Source of the DNA: Polaribacter sp. HaHaR_3_91
GTDB lineage: Bacteria; Bacteroidota; Bacteroidia; Flavobacteriales; Flavobacteriaceae
Reading direction: 5' to 3'
Length of the DNA stretch: 64,000 bases
NCBI RefSeq assembly: GCF_019278525.1
Contig: NZ_CP058986.1
Coordinates: 2,266,001-2,330,000, forward strand
Shown here: in pieces, positions 3,898 through 32,320 of the stretch
Layout of the letters: each line of letters opens with the position of its first letter
Numbering within the stretch: the stretch's first letter is position 1
Made by a program: the position numbers and the translations under genes
Notes under the pieces: generated by a model
Told to the model about the DNA's origin: nothing
Databases searched by the model: none
Seen by the model: only the letters and a program-made list of their open reading frames with translations

Positions 3898-6117
3898 TTA
3901 ATTTTTCTTTTTGATACAATAAATGGTTTCTTGTATGGTAAACCAACAAAAGTAAAAGATACCTACAGAAAAAATAACGTCACCAATCATACGCATCCAT
4001 TTTAAGGTTTGTACTGTTGGAGAATACAATAATTCTGCATCTCTTGCAAAAGAATATCCTTTTGTAATTGATGTGTATGCCTGTATAATTCCTATAGGTA
4101 ACATGCTTAAAAAGACCATAGCTATTAAACCAATATTTAAAAACCAAAAAGCTCTTTTTAATTTTACAGAACTCCATACTCTGTCAGAATAAAAACGCAA
4201 ACAGATAATAATGAATCCCATACCTAACAATCCATAAACACCAAATAAAGAAGTATGTGCGTGTACTGCTGTGGTATTTAATCCCTGAATATAATATAAT
4301 GCAATTGGTGGGTTAATTAAGAAACCAAATACACCTGCTCCTACCATGTTCCAAAATGCTACAGCAATAAAGAAAAATATAGGCCATTTGTATTTCTGAA
4401 TCCATTCGTTAGATTTTAAAAGATTCCAATTTTCACGAATTTCAAATCCCATTAAAGTTAACGGCACTACTTCTAAAGCACTAAAGGTTGCACCTAAAGC
4501 AATGGCTTGCACGGGTGTTCCAGAATAGTATAAATGGTGTAAAGTTCCAATAATTCCTCCTGCTAAAAATATGGTTGCAGAAGCAATAGAAGCTTTTCCT
4601 GCTGTTTTTGCTGATAAAATTTTCATTCTTAAGAAAATAAAAGCAATAACTACAGTTGCAAAAACCTCAAAGAAACCTTCTACCCAAAGGTGTACAAGCC
4701 ACCATCTCCAATAGTTAATTACTGGTAAACTACTGTTTTCTCCATACATTAATCCAGAGAAGAAAAACATACCAATGGCAATAACAGATATTAAAAGAAT
4801 AATTAATAAATGTTTAGAATCATCATTTTTCTTGATAGCAAACACTACGTGTCTACCTACCATAAGTACCCATAAAACCAAACCGACACCTAAGAATATT
4901 TGCCAAAACCTACCTAAATCCATGTACTCATATCCTTGATGACCAAAGAAGAAATTGGTTGTTAAATCTAAAAATTGATGCACACCTAACCACTCACCCA
5001 TCATAGAACCTAATACAATAAGTAATAACGCTATGAATAGAAAATTTATTCCGAATACTTGATACTTCATATCTTTACCACTAATCATTGGTGCTAAAAA
5101 TAATCCTGTTGCTAACCACGTTGCAGCAATCCAAAAGACAGCCAATTGTGTATGCCAAGTTCTGGTAATAGAATATGGAAGAAAACTAGATAAATCAAAA
5201 CCAAAAAACGCTTGACCTTCTACGGTATAATGCACTGTTAAAGCCCCTAAAACAACTTGTAAGGCAATTAATAATGAAATTACAATAAAGTATTTTAATA
5301 CTGCTTTTTGAGATCTAGAAAGCACTAAAGTATCTAAAGGATCTTTGTCTGGGTGTTTTACAGCTTCTCCTTTTTCATGATTACGGATGTAGTAATACGT
5401 TAATCCTCCGATAAATAAAAGTAAAAGAACAATAGAAAACCCAGACCATATTTGAGAGTCTGGCGTAATTGTATTGTCAATTAAAGGTTCGTGAGGCCAA
5501 TTAGAAGTATACGTATAATCTTTCTCTGGTCTGTTGGTACTTGCTGCCCAAGAAGTCCAGAATAAAAAAGCATTTAATTGTGCTAATTTTGTAGTGTCTA
5601 CTAAAGCCCCTTTAGGAATTGCATATTTTTCATATCCATTAGAAAAAATGTCTGTATAATGTTTGTAATTTTCTAATATAGCCGCATAACGATCTTTAGA
5701 AATGGTAATGCTACCTGTTTTAGCATTATAGGTATTTGTTTTAATATGCTGAATTAATCGTGCTTTTAAAGCAGCCTTATTTTCTACACCTAAGTTTTCG
5801 TAAGTTGAATTAAAATCTTTTTCTGCCCAAGCATTCAACATAAATACGGCTTCTTTATGTATCCAATCTGCAGACCAATCGGGTGCTACATAACTACCAT
5901 GGCCCCAAATAGAACCTACTTCCATTCCTCCAATAGATTCCCAAACATTCTGACCAATTTGTATATCTGCTTTGGTTAAAAATGTTTCTCCGGTTTCTTT
6001 TATAATAACGGTTTCTGGGATGGGTGGTTGTGTTTGATATACCTCTGTTCCTACCCAAATAAGTACTATAAAGGAAAGGGTTACTACGCTAGTAAATGCG
6101 ATCCAAACTTTTTTCAT
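3898..6117 (-). CDS. norZ: Quinol-dependent nitric oxide reductase (qNOR)
   Basis: A 739-aa membrane haem-copper oxidase family protein. An N-terminal extension (about residues 30-220, with GQNVWESIGGMEVGSIWGHG) replaces the separate cytochrome subunit of cNOR, so it should take electrons from quinol and reduce 2 NO to N2O. Metal ligands are visible: His322 for low-spin haem, His476 and Glu480 in HLWVEGFFE, His527/His528 for the FeB site, and His619/His621 in VHAHTSLFG. It follows the cupin gene by 20 bp and is probably in one operon with it behind the Rrf2-type dyad at 6498-6519. Length and motifs are complete. Confidence 0.95.
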   Translation of the reverse strand: MKKVWIAFTSVVTLSFIVLIWVGTEVYQTQPPIPETVIIKETGETFLTKADIQIGQNVWESIGGMEVGSIWGHGSYVAPDWSADWIHKEAVFMLNAWAEKDFNSTYENLGVENKAALKARLIQHIKTNTYNAKTGSITISKDRYAAILENYKHYTDIFSNGYEKYAIPKGALVDTTKLAQLNAFLFWTSWAASTNRPEKDYTYTSNWPHEPLIDNTITPDSQIWSGFSIVLLLLFIGGLTYYYIRNHEKGEAVKHPDKDPLDTLVLSRSQKAVLKYFIVISLLIALQVVLGALTVHYTVEGQAFFGFDLSSFLPYSITRTWHTQLAVFWIAATWLATGLFLAPMISGKDMKYQVFGINFLFIALLLIVLGSMMGEWLGVHQFLDLTTNFFFGHQGYEYMDLGRFWQIFLGVGLVLWVLMVGRHVVFAIKKNDDSKHLLIILLISVIAIGMFFFSGLMYGENSSLPVINYWRWWLVHLWVEGFFEVFATVVIAFIFLRMKILSAKTAGKASIASATIFLAGGIIGTLHHLYYSGTPVQAIALGATFSALEVVPLTLMGFEIRENWNLLKSNEWIQKYKWPIFFFIAVAFWNMVGAGVFGFLINPPIALYYIQGLNTTAVHAHTSLFGVYGLLGMGFIIICLRFYSDRVWSSVKLKRAFWFLNIGLIAMVFLSMLPIGIIQAYTSITKGYSFARDAELLYSPTVQTLKWMRMIGDVIFSVGIFYFCWFTIQETIYCIKKKN

Positions 6118-22438: not shown

Positions 22439-22945
22439 TTATAGCGTTCTAAAATACTCTAAAACTGCTCTACTTTCTTCTTCTGTTAAATGTTGATTAG
22501 CCATTGGAGATCCTTTAAATTGAACTAATAAAGCTTTTGCAATTGGATCCTTTTTAACCATTTCTTCAGGGTTTAAAATCATATTCATAATCCATTCAGG
22601 AGAACGTCTTGCTATAACTCCTTCCATACTTGGGCCTATAAATTTTCTATTTACTTTATGACAAGATGAACATTTGTTTTTAAATAATAATTTACCATCT
22701 GCAACCATATTTTTATCAATAGTTTCTTTTAAAGTTACAGTCTTAACAGGGCCAATTCCTTTGTTATTTAAATCTATAGCTATTTCTTCTTTTTCTACTA
22801 CTTTAGTTTTTTTCGCTTTTTCAGGAGCTTTTTTAACAGCTGCTTTTTTAGTAGGTATGTCATCTGTAGATTTCTTTTTTTCTTCTTTTCCACAACTAAT
22901 TAATAATAGTACTGCAAATAAGGCGATTAAATTTCTTAATTTCAT
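22439..22945 (-). CDS. Monohaem cytochrome c lipoprotein
   Basis: A 168-aa exported cytochrome. A lipobox LISC places the lipid on Cys18. A Lys/Ala-rich linker follows (about 20-55), then a class I cytochrome c domain with haem motif CSSCH (residues 92-96), FIGPSMEGV and a likely axial Met148 (KGSPMAN). It should sit on the periplasmic side and carry electrons. Upstream are a Crp/Fnr-type dyad (23069-23082) and an Rrf2-type dyad (23086-23107), the same pair of motifs as at the nirK promoter. It is therefore a good candidate for the electron donor to NirK; this is inference from regulation and location. Confidence 0.87.
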   Translation of the reverse strand: MKLRNLIALFAVLLLISCGKEEKKKSTDDIPTKKAAVKKAPEKAKKTKVVEKEEIAIDLNNKGIGPVKTVTLKETIDKNMVADGKLLFKNKCSSCHKVNRKFIGPSMEGVIARRSPEWIMNMILNPEEMVKKDPIAKALLVQFKGSPMANQHLTEEESRAVLEYFRTL

Positions 22946-23068
22946 TTTTGTTTTATTTAAAAGGTTAATTGTTATTTTTTCTATCGATATTATTTTTTAT
23001 AATACTTTTTCCTGCTATTTGATTTGTATTACTCCAAACAAATTTAAAAAAGTAGACTGCTAAAAAAC

Positions 23069-23082
23069 ATGACTATTATCAC
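23069..23082. promoter_or_regulatory. Crp/Fnr-type operator (ATGAC-N4-ATCAC)
   Basis: Half sites TGAC and ATCA with a 4-bp spacer, 124 bp upstream of the cytochrome c start at 22945. It stands only 3 bp from an Rrf2-type dyad, as at the nirK promoter. Confidence 0.5.
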
Positions 23083-23158: not shown

Positions 23159-23193
23159 AAAAAAGCCCCTTTTAATATTAAAAGAGGCTTTTT
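23159..23193. terminator. Intrinsic terminator between the 598-aa gene and the cytochrome gene
   Basis: AAAAAAGCCcCTTTTAAT and its partner TTAAAAGaGGCTTTTT form a long hairpin with one mismatch, flanked by A and T runs, so it can act in both directions. It closes the minus-strand gene that ends at 23213. Confidence 0.8.
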
Positions 23194-23212
23194 CATGTTA
23201 TAATATTGTTCC

Positions 23213-25009
23213 TTATAAATTCTCTATTTCTAGACCTATTAAAACAAGTTTTTGTTGTTCAATTTTAAGGGAATTTAAAAGTGTTTCTTTGCTATTTGTA
23301 AAAGCATCTTTTTTCGCTAAAAATAATTCATTATAGTACTCAATTCCGGCTTCTAAATTCTTTTTAAACTTCGTTAAAGTTCTCAATTGTTTTTTATCAA
23401 TTGTAGTTTTTGCTTCATTTACTTTATCCTGTAAATGAGTAATATAAAGAGATAGTTCTTTTACAAAAACATTTGGTCTATCTGTTCTAGTTAGCATGTT
23501 TTTTCTACCATAAATATGGTCTGTAATATCACGCAAACTCATTATTTTATCATAATATGCCATATTAGGTCCAGGACAAACAGAAACTCCGTCTCCTACT
23601 TTCTTTGTACTTATATTATTTAAAAGTAAAGTTGATGTACCTAAACCAACACAAATACAAGATTTTTCGGTGACTTTATTTACTCTTTCTTCTTTTTCTT
23701 CTGATGAAATTTCTAAAGCATCAATTTCTTTCAGTTTTAAATGCTGATACTCTCTAGATGCCGTACACAAACCTGTATCTTTAAATTCATGATTTAAAGC
23801 GATAAATTTATTAGGGCAAGAAGTACCTGGTCTTCCTTTATCGATAAGCATTTGTCTTTGCACATCTTTTGTATTTCCTTTTAGAGTGTTAAAAGGAACT
23901 CCCAAAGGAGAACTGTTACTTAAATACAAATCCTGTTCTTTGGCTTCTGCTAATTGTGCTACCGTTTTCTCATCGACACTTGTTGCTTCCGGAACCAATA
24001 AAAATGGACTTCCCCACCCTACAGAATCTAATTGATATTCTTCTAATAAAAAAGAATGCTCTTCACCAGTACCAACACCACCTTGCGTTGTTATTTTAAG
24101 TTCTAATTCTTTGGTAGGAATTATACGGTCTGCATCTTTTAAAGCTTGCTGCATTAATTCTTGCGTTTGACTTATTAAAGTCTCCTTATTTTCTTTAAAT
24201 TCCTTTAAAACAGTTCCCATTAAAAAACCATCAGTTGCAAAAGCATGTCCACCACAATTTAATCCAGATTCTACTCTATATTCAGAAACCCATAATCCTT
24301 TTTTAGCCAAAAACTTTCCTTGAATAAAAGCAGATCGATAATCACTAACTTTTAAAATAATTTTCTTTTTAATGTTTCCGTTTACATCTGGAAAAAAATC
24401 ATCAAAATTACTCATGTAGGTATATAACCTTGGATTCATACCTGCAGAAAGAATTAAAGACGAAGATAGTTTACTATTAGAATACCCTCTTAACGCAGCA
24501 TGTGCATCGTTGTATTCTATTGGTAATAACTCTTTATCTACATAATTTCCTTTATCAATTTTGGTCATAATATTAACATCAATACTACCCATTGATAAAT
24601 TCTTATTTGCCCAATCTTTTATCTTAGAAAAGTCGACTCCTTCTTCAGTCAACTTTAAAAAGTCTTTTTTTAATGAAGAATATTCTGGTAACATGTGAAT
24701 ATAATCCATTAATGCTTTACTTTTTTCTGATGTAATATTCTTTAATTGATTGAACTTTTCTTCTGTTTGGTCGTGTAATAAATCTAAATAAGAAGTAATT
24801 CTCTTTGCTCTAAAATCATCAACTTTATCTGAAATTTCTTTATATGGTATTTCAAATTTTTCGCTGTAAATTTTTCGCATTTTTTCTACTAAAATATCAT
24901 CCACTAAAGAAATAACAGAATCAATACCAAATTGTGCTACTTTTAAAGGAGAGTCTATAGTAAAACCAATTCCCATTACAGGAATGTGAAATGAATGTGA
25001 GTTTTTCAT
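23213..25009 (-). CDS. Unassigned 598-aa protein with six cysteines, in the nitrite/NO region
   Basis: I do not recognise a named family. The N-terminus (IPVMGIGFTIDSPLKVAQFGI) looks like the first strand of FMN TIM-barrel enzymes, and TQGGVGTGEEHSF (about 308-320) with LDSVGWGSPFLLVPEAT (about 327-343) resembles phosphate-binding glycine loops of that fold. Cysteines are Cys252 (GLNCGGHAF), Cys398, Cys415, Cys451, Cys453 and Cys478; the last five are spaced as iron-sulfur ligands could be. The C-terminal 80 residues look like a coiled coil. No signal peptide, so cytosolic. A Crp/Fnr-type dyad lies 69 bp upstream, tying it to the nirK genes. A flavin/iron-sulfur oxidoreductase is a guess. Confidence 0.75.
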   Translation of the reverse strand: MKNSHSFHIPVMGIGFTIDSPLKVAQFGIDSVISLVDDILVEKMRKIYSEKFEIPYKEISDKVDDFRAKRITSYLDLLHDQTEEKFNQLKNITSEKSKALMDYIHMLPEYSSLKKDFLKLTEEGVDFSKIKDWANKNLSMGSIDVNIMTKIDKGNYVDKELLPIEYNDAHAALRGYSNSKLSSSLILSAGMNPRLYTYMSNFDDFFPDVNGNIKKKIILKVSDYRSAFIQGKFLAKKGLWVSEYRVESGLNCGGHAFATDGFLMGTVLKEFKENKETLISQTQELMQQALKDADRIIPTKELELKITTQGGVGTGEEHSFLLEEYQLDSVGWGSPFLLVPEATSVDEKTVAQLAEAKEQDLYLSNSSPLGVPFNTLKGNTKDVQRQMLIDKGRPGTSCPNKFIALNHEFKDTGLCTASREYQHLKLKEIDALEISSEEKEERVNKVTEKSCICVGLGTSTLLLNNISTKKVGDGVSVCPGPNMAYYDKIMSLRDITDHIYGRKNMLTRTDRPNVFVKELSLYITHLQDKVNEAKTTIDKKQLRTLTKFKKNLEAGIEYYNELFLAKKDAFTNSKETLLNSLKIEQQKLVLIGLEIENL

Positions 25010-25077
25010 TGTTTAATTTAAATGTTTAACTAAATTTAATTAAGCTTGCAATTTATATTTATTTGCTTCTACAAAAC

Positions 25078-25091
25078 ATGATTAATATCAT
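25078..25091. promoter_or_regulatory. Crp/Fnr-type operator (ATGAT-N4-ATCAT)
   Basis: A perfect 5-bp inverted repeat with spacer TAAT, 69 bp upstream of the 598-aa gene's start at 25009, immediately after the preceding operon's terminator. Confidence 0.6.
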
Positions 25092-25165: not shown

Positions 25166-25888
25166 TTATTGTTTATTTTTTTTCTCTAAAAGAATGGCTT
25201 TAGGAAACAAAATATTATTTTCTAAATGTATATGTTGATGTAAGTCTTGCTCAAACTCATCTAACTTAGCATACAACGCTTTAAACGTATTACAAGCTCC
25301 TTCTGGTGGTGTATAATTATTAGAAAGTTGTTTAATTTCTTTTAAGATATCACCTGCACTTTCATGTTCATCTTCCATCATTGCTATTGGATTATTTACG
25401 GTTCCAAAATGAGGTTGATTTACTTTTACACCTTCTTTATCTGCGTTTACTAACTTTTTAATAAAAGGGAATAAAATAAGTTCTTCCTTTTTTAAATGAG
25501 CCGCTAATTCTTGTGCAACCAAATTAAAAAGTCTGTTAATTTCTATAACTTCTGTATAATGATGCCCATGAACTTTTGCAACTTTAGCTGCATATTGCAA
25601 TACTATAGGGGTATTTTCTTCTACATAAGCATGATGAATGCTTATAATATGATCTACCAGAAAATCTAGCTTCCAGCTATCATAATTGTAAGCATTTGTA
25701 CTTGGAGTATTTATTTCTAGTAGTTCTTTTTCCATTTCTTCAAAAGAAACATTGTGTTTTTTACACGCTTTTTCTATACTAATTCCGCCTCCACAACAAA
25801 AATCTATACCGTGTTTTTTAAATACATCTGCTGTTTTAATATTATATGTTACTACTTCTGCTACTGTATTATCCTTTGTAATTTTCAT
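25166..25888 (-). CDS. ric: Iron-sulfur cluster repair di-iron protein (RIC/ScdA/YtfE)
   Basis: A 240-aa RIC protein. The N-terminal ScdA_N (DUF542) domain has the conserved cysteine pair in IDFCCGGG (Cys31, Cys32). The C-terminal hemerythrin-like domain keeps the di-iron ligands: His85/86, His107 and His110 (KVHGHH), His131 with Glu135, His175 (EDEHES), and His217-221 with Glu223 (HIHLEN). RIC proteins repair Fe-S clusters damaged by NO and peroxide. It is the last gene of the nirK operon, starting 1 bp after SCO. This gives the cell protection from NO made by its own NirK. A paralogue lacking the cysteines is at 32321. Confidence 0.93.
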   Translation of the reverse strand: MKITKDNTVAEVVTYNIKTADVFKKHGIDFCCGGGISIEKACKKHNVSFEEMEKELLEINTPSTNAYNYDSWKLDFLVDHIISIHHAYVEENTPIVLQYAAKVAKVHGHHYTEVIEINRLFNLVAQELAAHLKKEELILFPFIKKLVNADKEGVKVNQPHFGTVNNPIAMMEDEHESAGDILKEIKQLSNNYTPPEGACNTFKALYAKLDEFEQDLHQHIHLENNILFPKAILLEKKNKQ

Positions 25889-25889
25889 T

Positions 25890-26606
25890 TTAATATGTTT
25901 TAATAGTTTCTATAATTTTTGTAATCGTTTCTTTATTATCAACACCTAATCCTTCTTGCTGATGTACTAATTCTCCATTCGGGTTAAAAACACTTATGAT
26001 GTTAGAATGAGAAAAATCTAAAGGAGAAATTTGTTTGTATTTTACCGCTAGTACATTTGCAAATTCTCTAACACCACTTTCTGTACCTTGTAATAAGGTC
26101 CAATTTTTATCTGTTAGAAAATTCTCTTCTGCAAATTCTTTTAACCTCTCTGGCGTATCATTCTCTGGATCTATACTAACCAAAACAAATTCTACACCTT
26201 CCTTTAATTCGGATGGAATTTTAGCATCTATATTTCTCATATCAGCTGTTAACCTAGGGCAAGCAGCTTTACAAGTTGTATAAATCATTACCATAACCAA
26301 AGTTTTACCTTTTAACTCTTTTAACTGAATTTCAGTACCATTTTGCGTATTCCATTTAGAAGTTAAGTTAAAAATAGACTCATCAGAAATCATGGTAGAC
26401 AAAACTTTTTTCACTATTTTAGATGTTGGTTTTAAATCCATTTTGCAAACAGGACAAGCGCCTTGTTCTAAATAAACTTTATCTCCTTCGCATTTCATAG
26501 GACATTGGTATTCTACCTTACTACTTTCTTTAGAAGTAGATGTATTACAAGAACTTAATGAAGTAACTGTAATAATTAATACTATAAGATATTTAAGTGT
26601 TTTCAT
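25890..26606 (-). CDS. SCO1/SenC copper chaperone lipoprotein with metal-binding N-domain
   Basis: The start at 26606 (238 aa) is preferred to an upstream Met at 26624 because it gives a clean lipoprotein signal (MKTLKYLIVLIITVTSLSSC, lipobox Cys20) and avoids overlapping the previous gene. A heavy-metal-binding domain follows with Cys35, Cys39, Cys51 and Cys54 (YQCPMKC...ACPVCKMDL). The SCO thioredoxin fold has C-x3-C (Cys112, Cys116) and His200, the copper ligands. SCO proteins deliver copper to cupro-enzymes in the periplasm; here the client is probably NirK, encoded two genes upstream in the same operon. Confidence 0.9.
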   Translation of the reverse strand: MKTLKYLIVLIITVTSLSSCNTSTSKESSKVEYQCPMKCEGDKVYLEQGACPVCKMDLKPTSKIVKKVLSTMISDESIFNLTSKWNTQNGTEIQLKELKGKTLVMVMIYTTCKAACPRLTADMRNIDAKIPSELKEGVEFVLVSIDPENDTPERLKEFAEENFLTDKNWTLLQGTESGVREFANVLAVKYKQISPLDFSHSNIISVFNPNGELVHQQEGLGVDNKETITKIIETIKTY

Positions 26607-26610
26607 GTTG

Positions 26611-27381
26611 CTATTTTTTATCATCTTTTACACATCTAAAACCTAGGTTTTTCATGGTATATTTTGCTTTTAAACTCCCTCTAATTGCATACCTCATAAA
26701 AGCAGCATAATTCATTAAATCTGTTGCATTTACAGCTGCGCTTCCACAAAACAGATTACTATCTGTATCTACATCTTTTCTAGATTCACCTGTAATTAAT
26801 ACAGAATTAAAATCTGAAGTCCATTCCCAAACTAAGCCATGTAAGTCAAATACTTGCCAATAATTTTTAAAAGTAGACCCTATAGTTTGATTGAAGGTCT
26901 TTGGTTTTTCGTACCAACTTAAAATAAAAGCATTGTACTCTTTTTGTTTTCTAGCATCTGGTATTTTTTTATTTGCCATGGCTACATATTCCCATTCATC
27001 TACAGTTGGCAATCTTTTTCCCTGACATTCGCAATATTCTTTTGCTGCAAACCAAGATACTTGAGTAATTGGAGAGTTTTCTTTTTTGTTTTCTCCTAAA
27101 AGAGTATCCGATTTCCAATCACGTAAATAGCTTTCATCCGCAAATAATTTTATGACTTTACTTTTCTGCCATTTTGGATACTTTTTTACAAAAGCCACAT
27201 ACTCTTTATTTGTAACCGGATATACATCCATTAAAAAGTTATCTATTTCAACTTTCATAGAATCTCTACCGTATAATGGGATGTAAGCTCCTCCTTTAAT
27301 TGGTACCATTTTAGATTGACAACTTGCATAAGTTATATTTAGGAGGATGAAACAAATTGTCAATCTTAAAATAGTTTTCAT
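26611..27381 (-). CDS. Formylglycine-generating-enzyme-like protein (NirV-like)
   Basis: A 256-aa exported protein of the FGE-sulfatase/SUMF1 fold: MVPIKGGAYIPLYG near the start, VYPVTNKEYVAFVK (about 52-65), ITQVSWFAAKEYCECQGKRLPTVDEWEY (about 105-132, by region), GLVWEWTSDF (about 186-195) and the closing NLGFRCVKD. It has a signal peptide, possibly lipidated at the Cys in YASCQS, though the lipobox is weak. FGE-like NirV proteins are recurrent neighbours of nirK in denitrifiers, but their function is not settled. It starts 22 bp after nirK and ends 4 bp before the SCO gene, so it is in the same operon. Confidence 0.85.
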   Translation of the reverse strand: MKTILRLTICFILLNITYASCQSKMVPIKGGAYIPLYGRDSMKVEIDNFLMDVYPVTNKEYVAFVKKYPKWQKSKVIKLFADESYLRDWKSDTLLGENKKENSPITQVSWFAAKEYCECQGKRLPTVDEWEYVAMANKKIPDARKQKEYNAFILSWYEKPKTFNQTIGSTFKNYWQVFDLHGLVWEWTSDFNSVLITGESRKDVDTDSNLFCGSAAVNATDLMNYAAFMRYAIRGSLKAKYTMKNLGFRCVKDDKK

Positions 27382-27403
27382 AGAAATTGAATTGAAATTA
27401 TTA

Positions 27404-28855
27404 TTAATTATTTTTTACATCTTGTACATTCTTAATGGTAACATTGGTTTTATTATTACCCCAAGAATTATATACATAGGTCATAACATCTGCAACTTCC
27501 CCTTCCGTTAATGTTTGTCTTGTCATTACACTATTATATTTTTTACCATTAACAGTAATTTCTCCTGTTTTACCATGCAAAACAATACCAATAGCTCTAT
27601 TAACATCTGCATTTAAATAATCTGATTTTGCCAATGGAGGAAATGCATTTGGTATTCCTTGCCCTTCCGCTTGGTGGCAAGCAAAACAAGTAGTCATATA
27701 CACTTGTTTACCATCTGCTATTTTTTTAGCTAAAGGTTTTTCTGTAGTAACCGCAACTTCATTTTTATTTTTATCTACTGGCATGGTTTGAATTGTTCCC
27801 CCTTCTGGGTGATAAATTCCTTCTTGTTTTACTCCAGAATATAATTTTTTATTTTCTTCACCAGACACTTTCAACATTCCTAATGCTCCTTTATTAAAAG
27901 CTCTAAAAATTGCATGATCAACCAAAATAAATGTTCCAGGAACTTCTACTTTAAAATCTACAATTGCTGCACCACCAGCAGGAATAGACGTTGTTTGTAC
28001 GTTTGTATTAATTAAATCTCCTCCTTCTACATGCACATTATCAAAAATTTCTCCAATAACATGAAAAGATGAAGTTAAGTTTGGACCACCGTTACCAACA
28101 AACAAACGAACCGTTTCACCAACATTTGCAGTAATAGCGTTATCACCAGTTAATGATCCAACCTTACCGTTAAAAACAACATAATCTGCATCTTCTTTAA
28201 TTGCTTTTGTCATATCAAAAGGTTGTAAGCCTTTTTCATCAGTAGCTCCTTTCGTATAAAAATCACCTTGCATAATGTAATATTCCTTGTCTACTTTAGG
28301 TAAACCTCCTTCTGGTTCTACCAAAATTAAACCATACATTCCATTTGCAATGTGCATTCCAACTGGTGCTGTAGCACAGTGATACACAAACAAACCAGGA
28401 TTTAAAGCTTTAAAAGAAAACGTTTTTTCATGTCCTGGAGCTACAAATGATGATTCTGCTCCACCACCAGGGCCCGTCACAGCATGCATATCTATATTAT
28501 GAGGTAATTTATTGTCTGGATGATTAGATAAAGTAAATTCTATTTCATCTCCTACTCTAGTTCTTATAAAACTTCCAGGCACTGTACCTCCAAAAGTCCA
28601 ATAAACATATTGTACTCCATCTGTCATGGTTCCTTCTTTTTCTAGAATTTCCATATTTACCAATAATTTTTTTGCTGTTCTATTTCCTATTGGAGCTGGC
28701 ACAAAAGGTGGAGAAGTCAATTCTGCTTCCATAGTTCCTTTTATATAAATTGTAGAACTATCTGCTTTAGCTAATTCTTGTTTTGGTTCACTTTTACAAT
28801 TAACTAGTAGTAAACTTCCTGCAAATAGTATGCACACTGCTTTTAATAATTTCAT
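27404..28855 (-). CDS. nirK: Copper nitrite reductase with C-terminal cytochrome c domain
   Basis: A 483-aa lipoprotein (lipobox LVNC, Cys20). Two cupredoxin domains carry the NirK copper sites: type 1 ligands His119, Cys160, His168 and Met173; type 2 ligands His124, His159 and His314; catalytic Asp122 and His265. A C-terminal haem c domain (about 370-465) is fused on, with CFACH (390-394) and likely axial Met444. It reduces nitrite to NO on the periplasmic side, the fused haem passing electrons in. First gene of the operon nirK-nirV-like-SCO-ric. The upstream region holds two Rrf2-type dyads and one Crp/Fnr-type dyad. Confidence 0.95.
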   Translation of the reverse strand: MKLLKAVCILFAGSLLLVNCKSEPKQELAKADSSTIYIKGTMEAELTSPPFVPAPIGNRTAKKLLVNMEILEKEGTMTDGVQYVYWTFGGTVPGSFIRTRVGDEIEFTLSNHPDNKLPHNIDMHAVTGPGGGAESSFVAPGHEKTFSFKALNPGLFVYHCATAPVGMHIANGMYGLILVEPEGGLPKVDKEYYIMQGDFYTKGATDEKGLQPFDMTKAIKEDADYVVFNGKVGSLTGDNAITANVGETVRLFVGNGGPNLTSSFHVIGEIFDNVHVEGGDLINTNVQTTSIPAGGAAIVDFKVEVPGTFILVDHAIFRAFNKGALGMLKVSGEENKKLYSGVKQEGIYHPEGGTIQTMPVDKNKNEVAVTTEKPLAKKIADGKQVYMTTCFACHQAEGQGIPNAFPPLAKSDYLNADVNRAIGIVLHGKTGEITVNGKKYNSVMTRQTLTEGEVADVMTYVYNSWGNNKTNVTIKNVQDVKNN

Positions 28856-29437: not shown

Positions 29438-30658
29438 ATGATAAAAGCCAAAACACAAAGTTTTGTGGCACTTTTGTATTTTTTAATAGCTTCTTCTTTA
29501 GGTATTCTATTACGTCTTTTTCCTATTATTGATATAAATATTGATTATAAATTTTTTGTACACACCCACTCTCATGTAGCACTTTTGGGTTGGGTATATA
29601 TTGGATTAACTAGCTTATTATTTTACTTGTATATAAATGAGGATGCTAAAAAAAAATATACAACACTATTTTTGTGCACTCAGATTACAATTGTAGGAAT
29701 GCTTATTAGTTTCCCAATAACTGGCTATGCTTTATTTTCTATTATTTTTTCTACGTTATTTATAATTTGTTCTTATTGGTTTTTTGCGTTTTTTAGAAAA
29801 AATAACCATTTAGAGAAAGACAGTTATGCGTTAAAATTTATAAATACCTCTCTAGTTTTTATGATTATTTCTAGTATTGGCCCTTGGTCATTAGGAATTA
29901 TTATGAACACTTTAGGTAGTACATCTCATTGGTATAAAAATGCCATTTATTTCTATTTACATTTTCAATATAATGGATGGTTTATATTCTGTTTATTAGG
30001 ATTATTTTTTTCACTTTTAGAAAAGCATCGCTGCGTTATTTCTAAAAAAAAAGTTGGTTCCTTTTATAAATTGATGCTATGGGGATGCATACTAACTTTA
30101 CCACTATCTTTTTTATGGATTAAACCACACATAACCCTTTATCTAACAGCTTTATTAGGTGTATTTATCCAACTCTTTGCTTTAAGCTATTTATATCAAA
30201 TAATAAAGAGCCATAAATTTGTTTTAAAACAGAAAACACCTCGTTTTTTCTTTAATTTAATCAGCTTTGTTTTGGTGTTTTTTACTCTAAAAACTTTAAT
30301 GCAATCTATAACGGTAATCCCTTATTTTGTAGATTTATCTTATCAAATTAAAGACTTTGTAATAGGGTATTTACACCTCGTTTTTTTAGGGGTAATAAGT
30401 TTGAGTATCTTCTTTTTTTTACATCAAAACAAACTATTAAAATTACCCAAAGTTTGGATAAGCATTTACTTAATAGGATTTCTTTTTTCTGAAATTTTAA
30501 TATTTTATAAAGGTTTTTGCAATTGGCAGCAATTATCTATTATCAATAATTATTATACAATATTAGTACTGATTTCTGTATTGATGCCAATTGGTGTTTT
30601 GGGAATATTTATTACCAATATAAAACCTACTTTTTCCAATCTAAAAGAATCTGTTTAG
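29438..30658 (+). CDS. Polytopic membrane protein resembling haem-copper oxidase subunit I / NnrS
   Basis: A 406-aa protein with about 12 hydrophobic spans and little else. Near the N-terminus HTHSHVALLGWVYIGL (His42, His44, His46) is very like the haem-binding helix HAHTSLFGVYGLLG of the NO reductase at 3898. A second candidate ligand is His in YFYLHFQYNGW (about residue 178). It lacks the other haem-copper oxidase ligands, so it is not a full oxidase. NnrS-type haem-copper membrane proteins relieve NO stress, and this gene shares an operon (2-bp gap) with an NsrR-like regulator. Its 3' end overlaps the convergent decarboxylase gene by 32 bp. Exact family not certain. Confidence 0.75.
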   Translation: MIKAKTQSFVALLYFLIASSLGILLRLFPIIDINIDYKFFVHTHSHVALLGWVYIGLTSLLFYLYINEDAKKKYTTLFLCTQITIVGMLISFPITGYALFSIIFSTLFIICSYWFFAFFRKNNHLEKDSYALKFINTSLVFMIISSIGPWSLGIIMNTLGSTSHWYKNAIYFYLHFQYNGWFIFCLLGLFFSLLEKHRCVISKKKVGSFYKLMLWGCILTLPLSFLWIKPHITLYLTALLGVFIQLFALSYLYQIIKSHKFVLKQKTPRFFFNLISFVLVFFTLKTLMQSITVIPYFVDLSYQIKDFVIGYLHLVFLGVISLSIFFFLHQNKLLKLPKVWISIYLIGFLFSEILIFYKGFCNWQQLSIINNYYTILVLISVLMPIGVLGIFITNIKPTFSNLKESV

Positions 30659-32063: not shown

Positions 32064-32253
32064 TTTAAAATAATTTTAGCGCAAATTACATCATCTTAAA
32101 CTTTTATTGAAGGTAAAAGTTGTTTTATCTCAATAGTAAGTCCAAAAAACTTCATTTTAACGTTATGAATAAATGATTTTTATTCATCATTTAACATGTA
32201 CTTATCCGAAAATGATATCGTTTTAATACAAATATCTATAATTATGTAAAAAA

Positions 32254-32267
32254 GTGACAAAAGTCAT
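32254..32267. promoter_or_regulatory. Crp/Fnr-type operator (GTGAC-N4-GTCAT)
   Basis: TGAC and GTCA are exact inverted half sites with spacer AAAA, 53 bp before the start of the Ric paralogue at 32321. No Rrf2-type dyad accompanies it. Confidence 0.6.
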
Positions 32268-32320
32268 TTTTTATCCCTAATAATAAGAGCATATTTGTTA
32301 AGAATTCAAAGCCTATCATT

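Follow-up and report, generated by a model that had tools for sequence, protein, structure and literature searches.

An unnamed family of putative flavin-barrel proteins with six invariant cysteines and, in many cases, a Crp/Fnr-type upstream site in Bacteroidota

A 64,000-nucleotide stretch of the Polaribacter sp. HaHaR_3_91 genome (contig NZ_CP058986.1, positions 2,266,001 to 2,330,000; hereafter the window) encodes a 598-aa protein without a family name on the minus strand at 23213..25009. The gene lies between a cytochrome c gene and a row of genes for RIC, an SCO1-like protein, an FGE-domain protein and the copper nitrite reductase NirK, all on the same strand. The gene is real and has an ATG start. 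A first-pass annotation made from the sequence had regarded its product as a candidate enzyme of nitric oxide (NO) or nitrite metabolism. The locus raises the question of what kind of protein is encoded here and to which process it belongs. We consider it reasonably probable that the protein represents a new, unnamed family of flavin mononucleotide (FMN) and iron-sulfur (Fe-S) cluster oxidoreductases, built on the barrel of nitronate monooxygenase (NMO), PfaD and FabK and belonging to a low-oxygen Crp/Fnr regulon, with an acyl substrate as the leading guess. It is probably cytosolic.

That no family name fits had been stated at first pass, and sequence searches agree. The window protein had no significant match in Pfam, NCBIfam or the PDB sequences, and a profile of 23 homologues had none in PDB. 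These 23 members gave 35 Pfam families; of the 25 that were listed, none was matched by more than four members, and the best single E-value was 0.0012. PF03060, the NMO/FabK family, was absent for the window protein up to E 10 and absent among the same 25 listed families; TIGR02814 (PfaD) likewise gave no row for the window protein up to E 10, its curated cut-off not being reached. In the open-licence literature, searched by general terms since the family is nameless, no description of it was found. Homologues were sought in whole genomes, including an even sample of 395 Bacteroidota genomes in which at most three candidates were scored per genome, so that extra copies could be missed. They were present in 142 of the 395 genomes and in 74 of 170 genera, and no relatives were detected on the plasmids and viral contigs searched. 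A single match was listed per genome except for G207, with two full matches, and G052, which carries one intact copy and a broken second one at G052:C1:4371173-4372865 (fragments spread over several frames, one of them containing stops); in G345 only a C-terminal piece is found. Within the genus of the window 6 of 36 genomes carry a homologue, the window's own included. The nearest named loci are from Polaribacter (75-86% identity), and across 99 aligned homologues identity to the window protein ranges from 40 to 87% with a median of 47%.

We used an alignment of 100 sequences, one of which (L015) was included without a Met start, to locate conserved residues. The window protein contains exactly six cysteines (252, 398, 415, 451, 453 and 478), Cys252 plus five in the C-terminal half as described at first pass, and all six are identical in 100/100 sequences, a pattern fit for a metal cluster. 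The same invariance is shared by N146, S188-A189-G190, K220, R225, E243, E247, S248, G249, N251, G253-G254-H255, Q309-G310-G311, G331, W332, P368, K449, P479, P481, N482, R511 and E518. Glycine-rich stretches, which had been read as marks of a flavin barrel, are indeed found at the N-terminus (HIPVMG) and in mid-protein (ESGLNCGGH, QGGVG, GWG).

A Foldseek search with two models of low to medium confidence returned FMN-binding triose-phosphate isomerase (TIM) barrels of the nitronate monooxygenase/PfaD/FabK/FabX superfamily; PfaD was the best match (E 7e-5) and all eight best rows belong to the NMO superfamily. The flavin-type TIM barrel suspected at first pass is thereby supported at the level of predicted models. 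Residues 1-345 (23975..25009, minus strand) would form this barrel, which a helical insert (about residues 38-137) would interrupt. Residues 346-598 (23213..23974, minus strand, stop codon included) would form a cysteine-rich, lid-like part and a helical tail, with helices predicted at modest confidence at 514-533, 539-565 and 574-597. According to the available part of PMC13311796, FMN in PfaD-type reductases is contacted by the Met of motif I, N1659, S1688, K1722, E1770, G1774, G1814-G1815 and G1836-T1837, and H1776 is catalytic. Counterparts occur in the same order in the family: M12 (83 M, 15 L), N146, S188, K220, E247, G253, H255, G310-G311 and G333-S/T334, where G333 is present in 98/100 and S/T334 in 100/100 sequences. 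This correspondence rests on order and predicted strand ends only, M12, N146, S188, K220 and E247 lying within two residues of such ends. The segment C252-G253-G254-H255 (24245..24256, minus strand), also invariant, would be the counterpart of the xEAGGH or ADSGGH motif carrying the proposed catalytic His of FabK, PfaD and NMO, as given in the part of PMC13311796 at hand; from Glu to His one counts 8 residues in the family versus 6 in the PfaD-type reductases of that source. When the family profile was compared with 21 NMO/FabK proteins of the sampled genomes, the last two motifs came into register (probability 3.4%) at E 0.013, versus 0.05-0.89 for 11 other families and 0.31 for reversed sequences. 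This profile match is weak alone, but it falls at the expected place. Altogether, a fold and an FMN site of the NMO/PfaD type are supported by the models and by the correspondence of residues.

Comparison with characterised members of the superfamily shows both likeness and difference. The focal protein would share the FMN TIM barrel with PfaD and the trans-acting enoyl reductases (4z9r, 6lkc, 4z38 MlnA, 4cw5 DfnA), the order of the N, S, K, E, GGH, GG and G-[ST] classes is the same, and a large C-terminal part follows the barrel, comparable to the lid in the portion of PMC13311796 available. It differs from PfaD in an additional helical segment, some 100 residues long, ahead of the strand that ends in N146, in a Glu-to-His loop that is two residues longer and holds Cys252, in the five invariant cysteines of the C-terminal part and in being undetected by TIGR02814. 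PfaD was above its cut-off in none of 118 sampled phylum genomes, and no polyunsaturated fatty acid (PUFA)/polyketide synthase cluster was seen among the annotated neighbour clusters, which were those present in more than a few loci. With the NMO/FabK proteins of PF03060 the family has in common the GGH, GG and G-[ST] classes in order, the weak profile match at the right place and an xEAGGH-type His motif (ESGLNCGGH with an insertion, GGH in 100/100); however, the focal protein is nearly twice as long, ends in a cysteine-rich C-terminus and has no PF03060 match. FabX of Helicobacter pylori is an NMO-family enzyme whose C-terminal subdomain binds a [4Fe-4S] cluster on C300, C304, C308 and C320, a cluster which, in the part of PMC8626469 consulted, is described as absent from all other superfamily members characterised to date. 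Like FabX (7e1q), the focal protein would have an NMO-type barrel with an FMN site and a catalytic His, and a cysteine-bearing C-terminal subdomain after it. The cysteines stand in the same location after the barrel, but the ligand pattern is CX3CX3CX11C in FabX and C-X16-C-X35-C-X1-C-X24-C in the family; FabX has about 363 aa versus 598 aa, and the focal protein has five plus one cysteines and no PF03060 match. In the portions of these sources at our disposal, no active-motif cysteine such as Cys252 is mentioned for FabK, PfaD or FabX.

The relative FabX holds its [4Fe-4S] cluster after the barrel, where the five focal cysteines also stand. These five lid cysteines (C398, C415, C451, C453 and C478, encoded within 23576..23818, minus strand) probably hold an Fe-S cluster as well, by analogy with the FabX subdomain (PMC8626469, seen in part).

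We then considered regulation. The Crp/Fnr-type dyad noted at first pass upstream of the gene is present as TGATATTAATCATGTTTT at 25073..25090 (minus strand), and site statistics agree with it. The pattern TGAYNNNNRTCANNTTTT has four matches in the window, two of which overlap so that three places are marked, versus 0.23 expected; none of 100 shuffles reached four. The other places are 23064..23081, before the cytochrome c gene (22439..22945, minus strand, PF00034), and 32249..32272, where the two overlapping copies lie between divergent genes for a pyridoxal phosphate (PLP) decarboxylase and a second RIC-like protein (PF00282, PF04405, PF01814). Upstream of the homologues we scanned for gapped palindromes with 4- and 5-base arms present in at least 8 upstream stretches. 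TGAT-N4-ATCA showed the top enrichment, with 13/97 homologue upstreams versus 9/676. When 4 of the 100 loci with less than 60 bp of upstream DNA were left out, TGAY-N4-RTCA was found before 29/96 homologues, in 28 cases at 48-117 bp from the start, compared with 25/740 unassigned genes of the same loci and 8/356 genes in 40 random regions. By group, 17/22 homologues of family f1 and 12/74 outside it carry the motif. It also precedes neighbouring genes: RIC (11/20), nirK (4/9), cytochrome c (3/8), PLP decarboxylase (4/8), Rrf2 (4/16) and heavy-metal P-type ATPase (4/6), and none of the genes for NosZ (0/3), NosD (0/3) and HemN (0/6). HcpR-type sites (TTGT-N10-ACAA) were rejected as not enriched (1/97 versus 7/676). 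GTTAC-N4-GTAAC, TGTGA-N6-TCACA and TTGAT-N4-ATCAA were each found upstream of 0/97 homologues, and TGT-N-A-N6-T-N-ACA upstream of 3/97 versus 2/676.

In the window's own genome TGAYNNNNRTCANNTTTT has 28 matches versus 7 for the reversed pattern, 19 of them intergenic and 9 inside genes. Sites are located 243 bp before ccoN (TIGR00780 above cut-off), between a heavy-metal ATPase gene and a divergent Crp/Fnr regulator gene (63 and 45 bp), 59 bp before a fatty-acid desaturase gene (PF00487; L265, about 3308022) and 71 bp before a gene for an NrdJ-like ribonucleotide reductase (best model TIGR02504, below cut-off on a cut piece). Further sites precede genes for a multihaem cytochrome and for Usp and CBS proteins besides the three places in the window, and some precede genes without a clear link (malic enzyme/DUF5686, a TonB protein). 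A second genome of the same family, G300, has none of nosZ, nirK, norZ and RIC above cut-off. There the pattern is not enriched overall (11 versus 9) and 6/11 matches lie inside genes. Only the intergenic matches bear on the regulon: they stand before ccoN, the focal gene, a gene with a CBS domain and a pair of THDPS/PAS genes. From the gene list we infer that the site marks a regulon of the Fnr/FixK low-oxygen type. Because it also precedes ccoN, the Fnr-like regulator, the NrdJ-like reductase and the desaturase, the regulon would concern low-oxygen life generally. The accessible part of PMC8510549 puts the Crp/Fnr proteins of Flavobacteriales, Saprospiraceae and Ignavibacteria in a carbon-sensing group and saw no control of denitrification by them, a view that differs from the regulatory link found here.

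The chief rival is that the protein removes NO-derived products: an FMN/Fe-S enzyme proper to NO and nitrite stress which, like nitronate monooxygenase, would act on nitro, nitroso or NO-derived compounds and be made together with RIC, NirK and NosZ. We think this unlikely, though several lines of evidence speak for it. The neighbourhood set comprised 100 loci (the window, 8 named and 91 others, including 84 of the 142 sample carriers), from which the neighbour-gene models were built, and 40 random regions from 20 carrier genomes served as background. At least one gene for RIC, NirK, NosZ, NosD, NosL, NosY or NorZ lies within about 8 kb in 27/100 loci versus 0/40 random regions; by hand count, the 27 represent 5 families with 12 labelled genera, besides the named Polaribacter. 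The commonest neighbour is RIC (20/100 loci), an iron-sulfur cluster repair protein of the ScdA/YtfE type, often adjoining the focal gene and itself preceded by the same site in the 11 of 20 cases mentioned. With kinship not corrected for, carriers more often have nosZ (67/142 versus 59/253 others, odds ratio 2.9), nirK (42/142 versus 22/253, odds ratio 4.4), norZ (28/142 versus 10/253, odds ratio 6.0) or any of the three (99/142 versus 74/253). Overall, nosZ is above cut-off in 126/395 sampled genomes, and norZ matches at E <= 1e-60 occur in 38/395. In family f1, counted by hand, nirK is present in 14/27 carriers versus 0/14 non-carriers (p = 0.001), nosZ in 9/27 versus 6/14 (p = 0.73) and either of them in 20/27 versus 6/14 (p = 0.09). 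Among genomes without nosZ and nirK, drawn from 394 of the 395, RIC is above cut-off in 12/40 carriers (of 48) versus 1/40 non-carriers (of 183), the non-carrier sample being rich in one family (f32).

On the other hand, at the cut-offs applied 43/142 carriers have no nosZ, nirK or norZ, 28 of the 40 carriers tested for RIC have none above cut-off, and genes linked to oxygen, ccoN and the desaturase among them, carry the shared site too. In 73/100 loci none of the scored genes is nearby. A strict tie to nirK is ruled out by a same-genus comparison (3/6 carriers versus 6/30 non-carriers, p = 0.15, hand count). Of the tie to NO and nitrite proposed at first pass, the association with denitrification neighbourhoods and genes is thus supported, and the specificity of the enzyme is not. 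The gene is linked to low-oxygen life, with denitrification as one branch.

Alternatively, the protein may act where a shortage of O2 disables the O2-dependent desaturase, making or remodelling unsaturated fatty acids in the manner of FabX-type proteins of other bacteria; in this specific form we regard the proposal as improbable to a similar degree. Its structural relatives are acyl-thioester enzymes, the desaturase gene of its own genome has the same site, and the sole NMO-family gene over cut-off in that genome encodes 313 aa with FabK as best NCBIfam model (below cut-off), so that no FabX is seen. Furthermore, according to the available text of PMC11300592, a FabX relative in Neisseria gonorrhoeae is essential if unsaturated fatty acids are to be made anaerobically, and its electron acceptor is not known. 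Against this, PF03060 gives no homology to FabX, and neither a cysteine in the active motif nor a longer loop is mentioned for FabX in the part of PMC8626469 at hand. Nor did the annotated neighbour clusters include any fatty-acid gene.

That the flavin reading is wrong altogether, the protein being a regulator without catalytic activity or a different phosphate-binding TIM barrel that resembles IMPDH or glutamate synthase, is hardly to be expected, given the eight best Foldseek rows and the FMN-contact classes recurring in order, invariant or nearly so; the glutamate-synthase family was absent from the listed Foldseek and VIA rows, no search aimed at it having been made.

Returning to the FMN/Fe-S oxidoreductase as the favoured reading, a catalytic scheme can be proposed. 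His255 would take or give a proton on a C-H acidic substrate while FMN takes or gives a hydride, and the Fe-S cluster would exchange single electrons with a partner that is not O2; Cys252 shares the motif with the presumed catalytic His255. The gene would belong to the low-oxygen regulon of Crp/Fnr type, and some of the species have it inside nirK, nosZ or RIC clusters. We infer both the direction of the electrons and the substrate class. An acyl-chain redox step needed at scarce O2 is the leading guess for its role, because the closest structural relatives (PfaD, FabK, FabX) act on acyl thioesters and the desaturase shares the site; as no fatty-acid gene turned up among the annotated neighbours, the acyl substrate remains a guess. 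More speculatively, and with rather modest expectation, the family may be a widespread, undescribed FMN/Fe-S class by which many Bacteroidota do without O2 an acyl-chain or NO-damage-related redox step that normally falls to an O2-requiring enzyme. Electrons would then leave an NMO-type site through the Fe-S lid instead of through O2, and the active-site cysteine would be used.

In the window itself, the RIC gene (25166..25888, minus strand, TIGR03652 above cut-off) lies upstream of the focal gene, and the SCO1-like, FGE-domain and nirK genes (PF02630, PF03781; TIGR02376 above cut-off) lie further upstream at 25890..28855 (minus strand). The gene had been thought to be transcribed by itself. 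A terminator-like hairpin 3' of its stop codon (23159..23194, minus strand) and the dyad in the 156-bp gap to the same-strand RIC gene make an own transcript plausible here from the sequence. However, a terminator scan of this gap found none, and several other genomes have RIC and the focal gene side by side on one strand, 17-165 bp apart, so that they may form an operon there.

Some further genes were noticed. At 29438..30658 (plus strand) a 406-aa membrane-like protein without a Pfam or NCBIfam match is encoded after an Rrf2 regulator, and its cluster recurs in 14/100 focal loci. At 3898..6117 (minus strand) a gene which we take, from its sequence, to be the quinol-type NO reductase gene norZ adjoins cupin and Rrf2 regulator genes; it had no NCBIfam match. 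A 195-aa protein without a Pfam match (L137:14258-14842, minus strand) is found in 7/100 loci, where it lies between nosZ and either nosL or nosD.

About one third of the sampled phylum genomes carry a mostly single-copy, strongly conserved protein of 600 aa that is nameless in Pfam, NCBIfam and PDB sequence searches. TGAY-N4-RTCA followed by T's offers a testable low-oxygen regulon for the phylum. If the flavin/Fe-S reading is true, the family would add to the NMO superfamily a second Fe-S architecture beside that of FabX, and it would name a missing part of Bacteroidota life at low oxygen.
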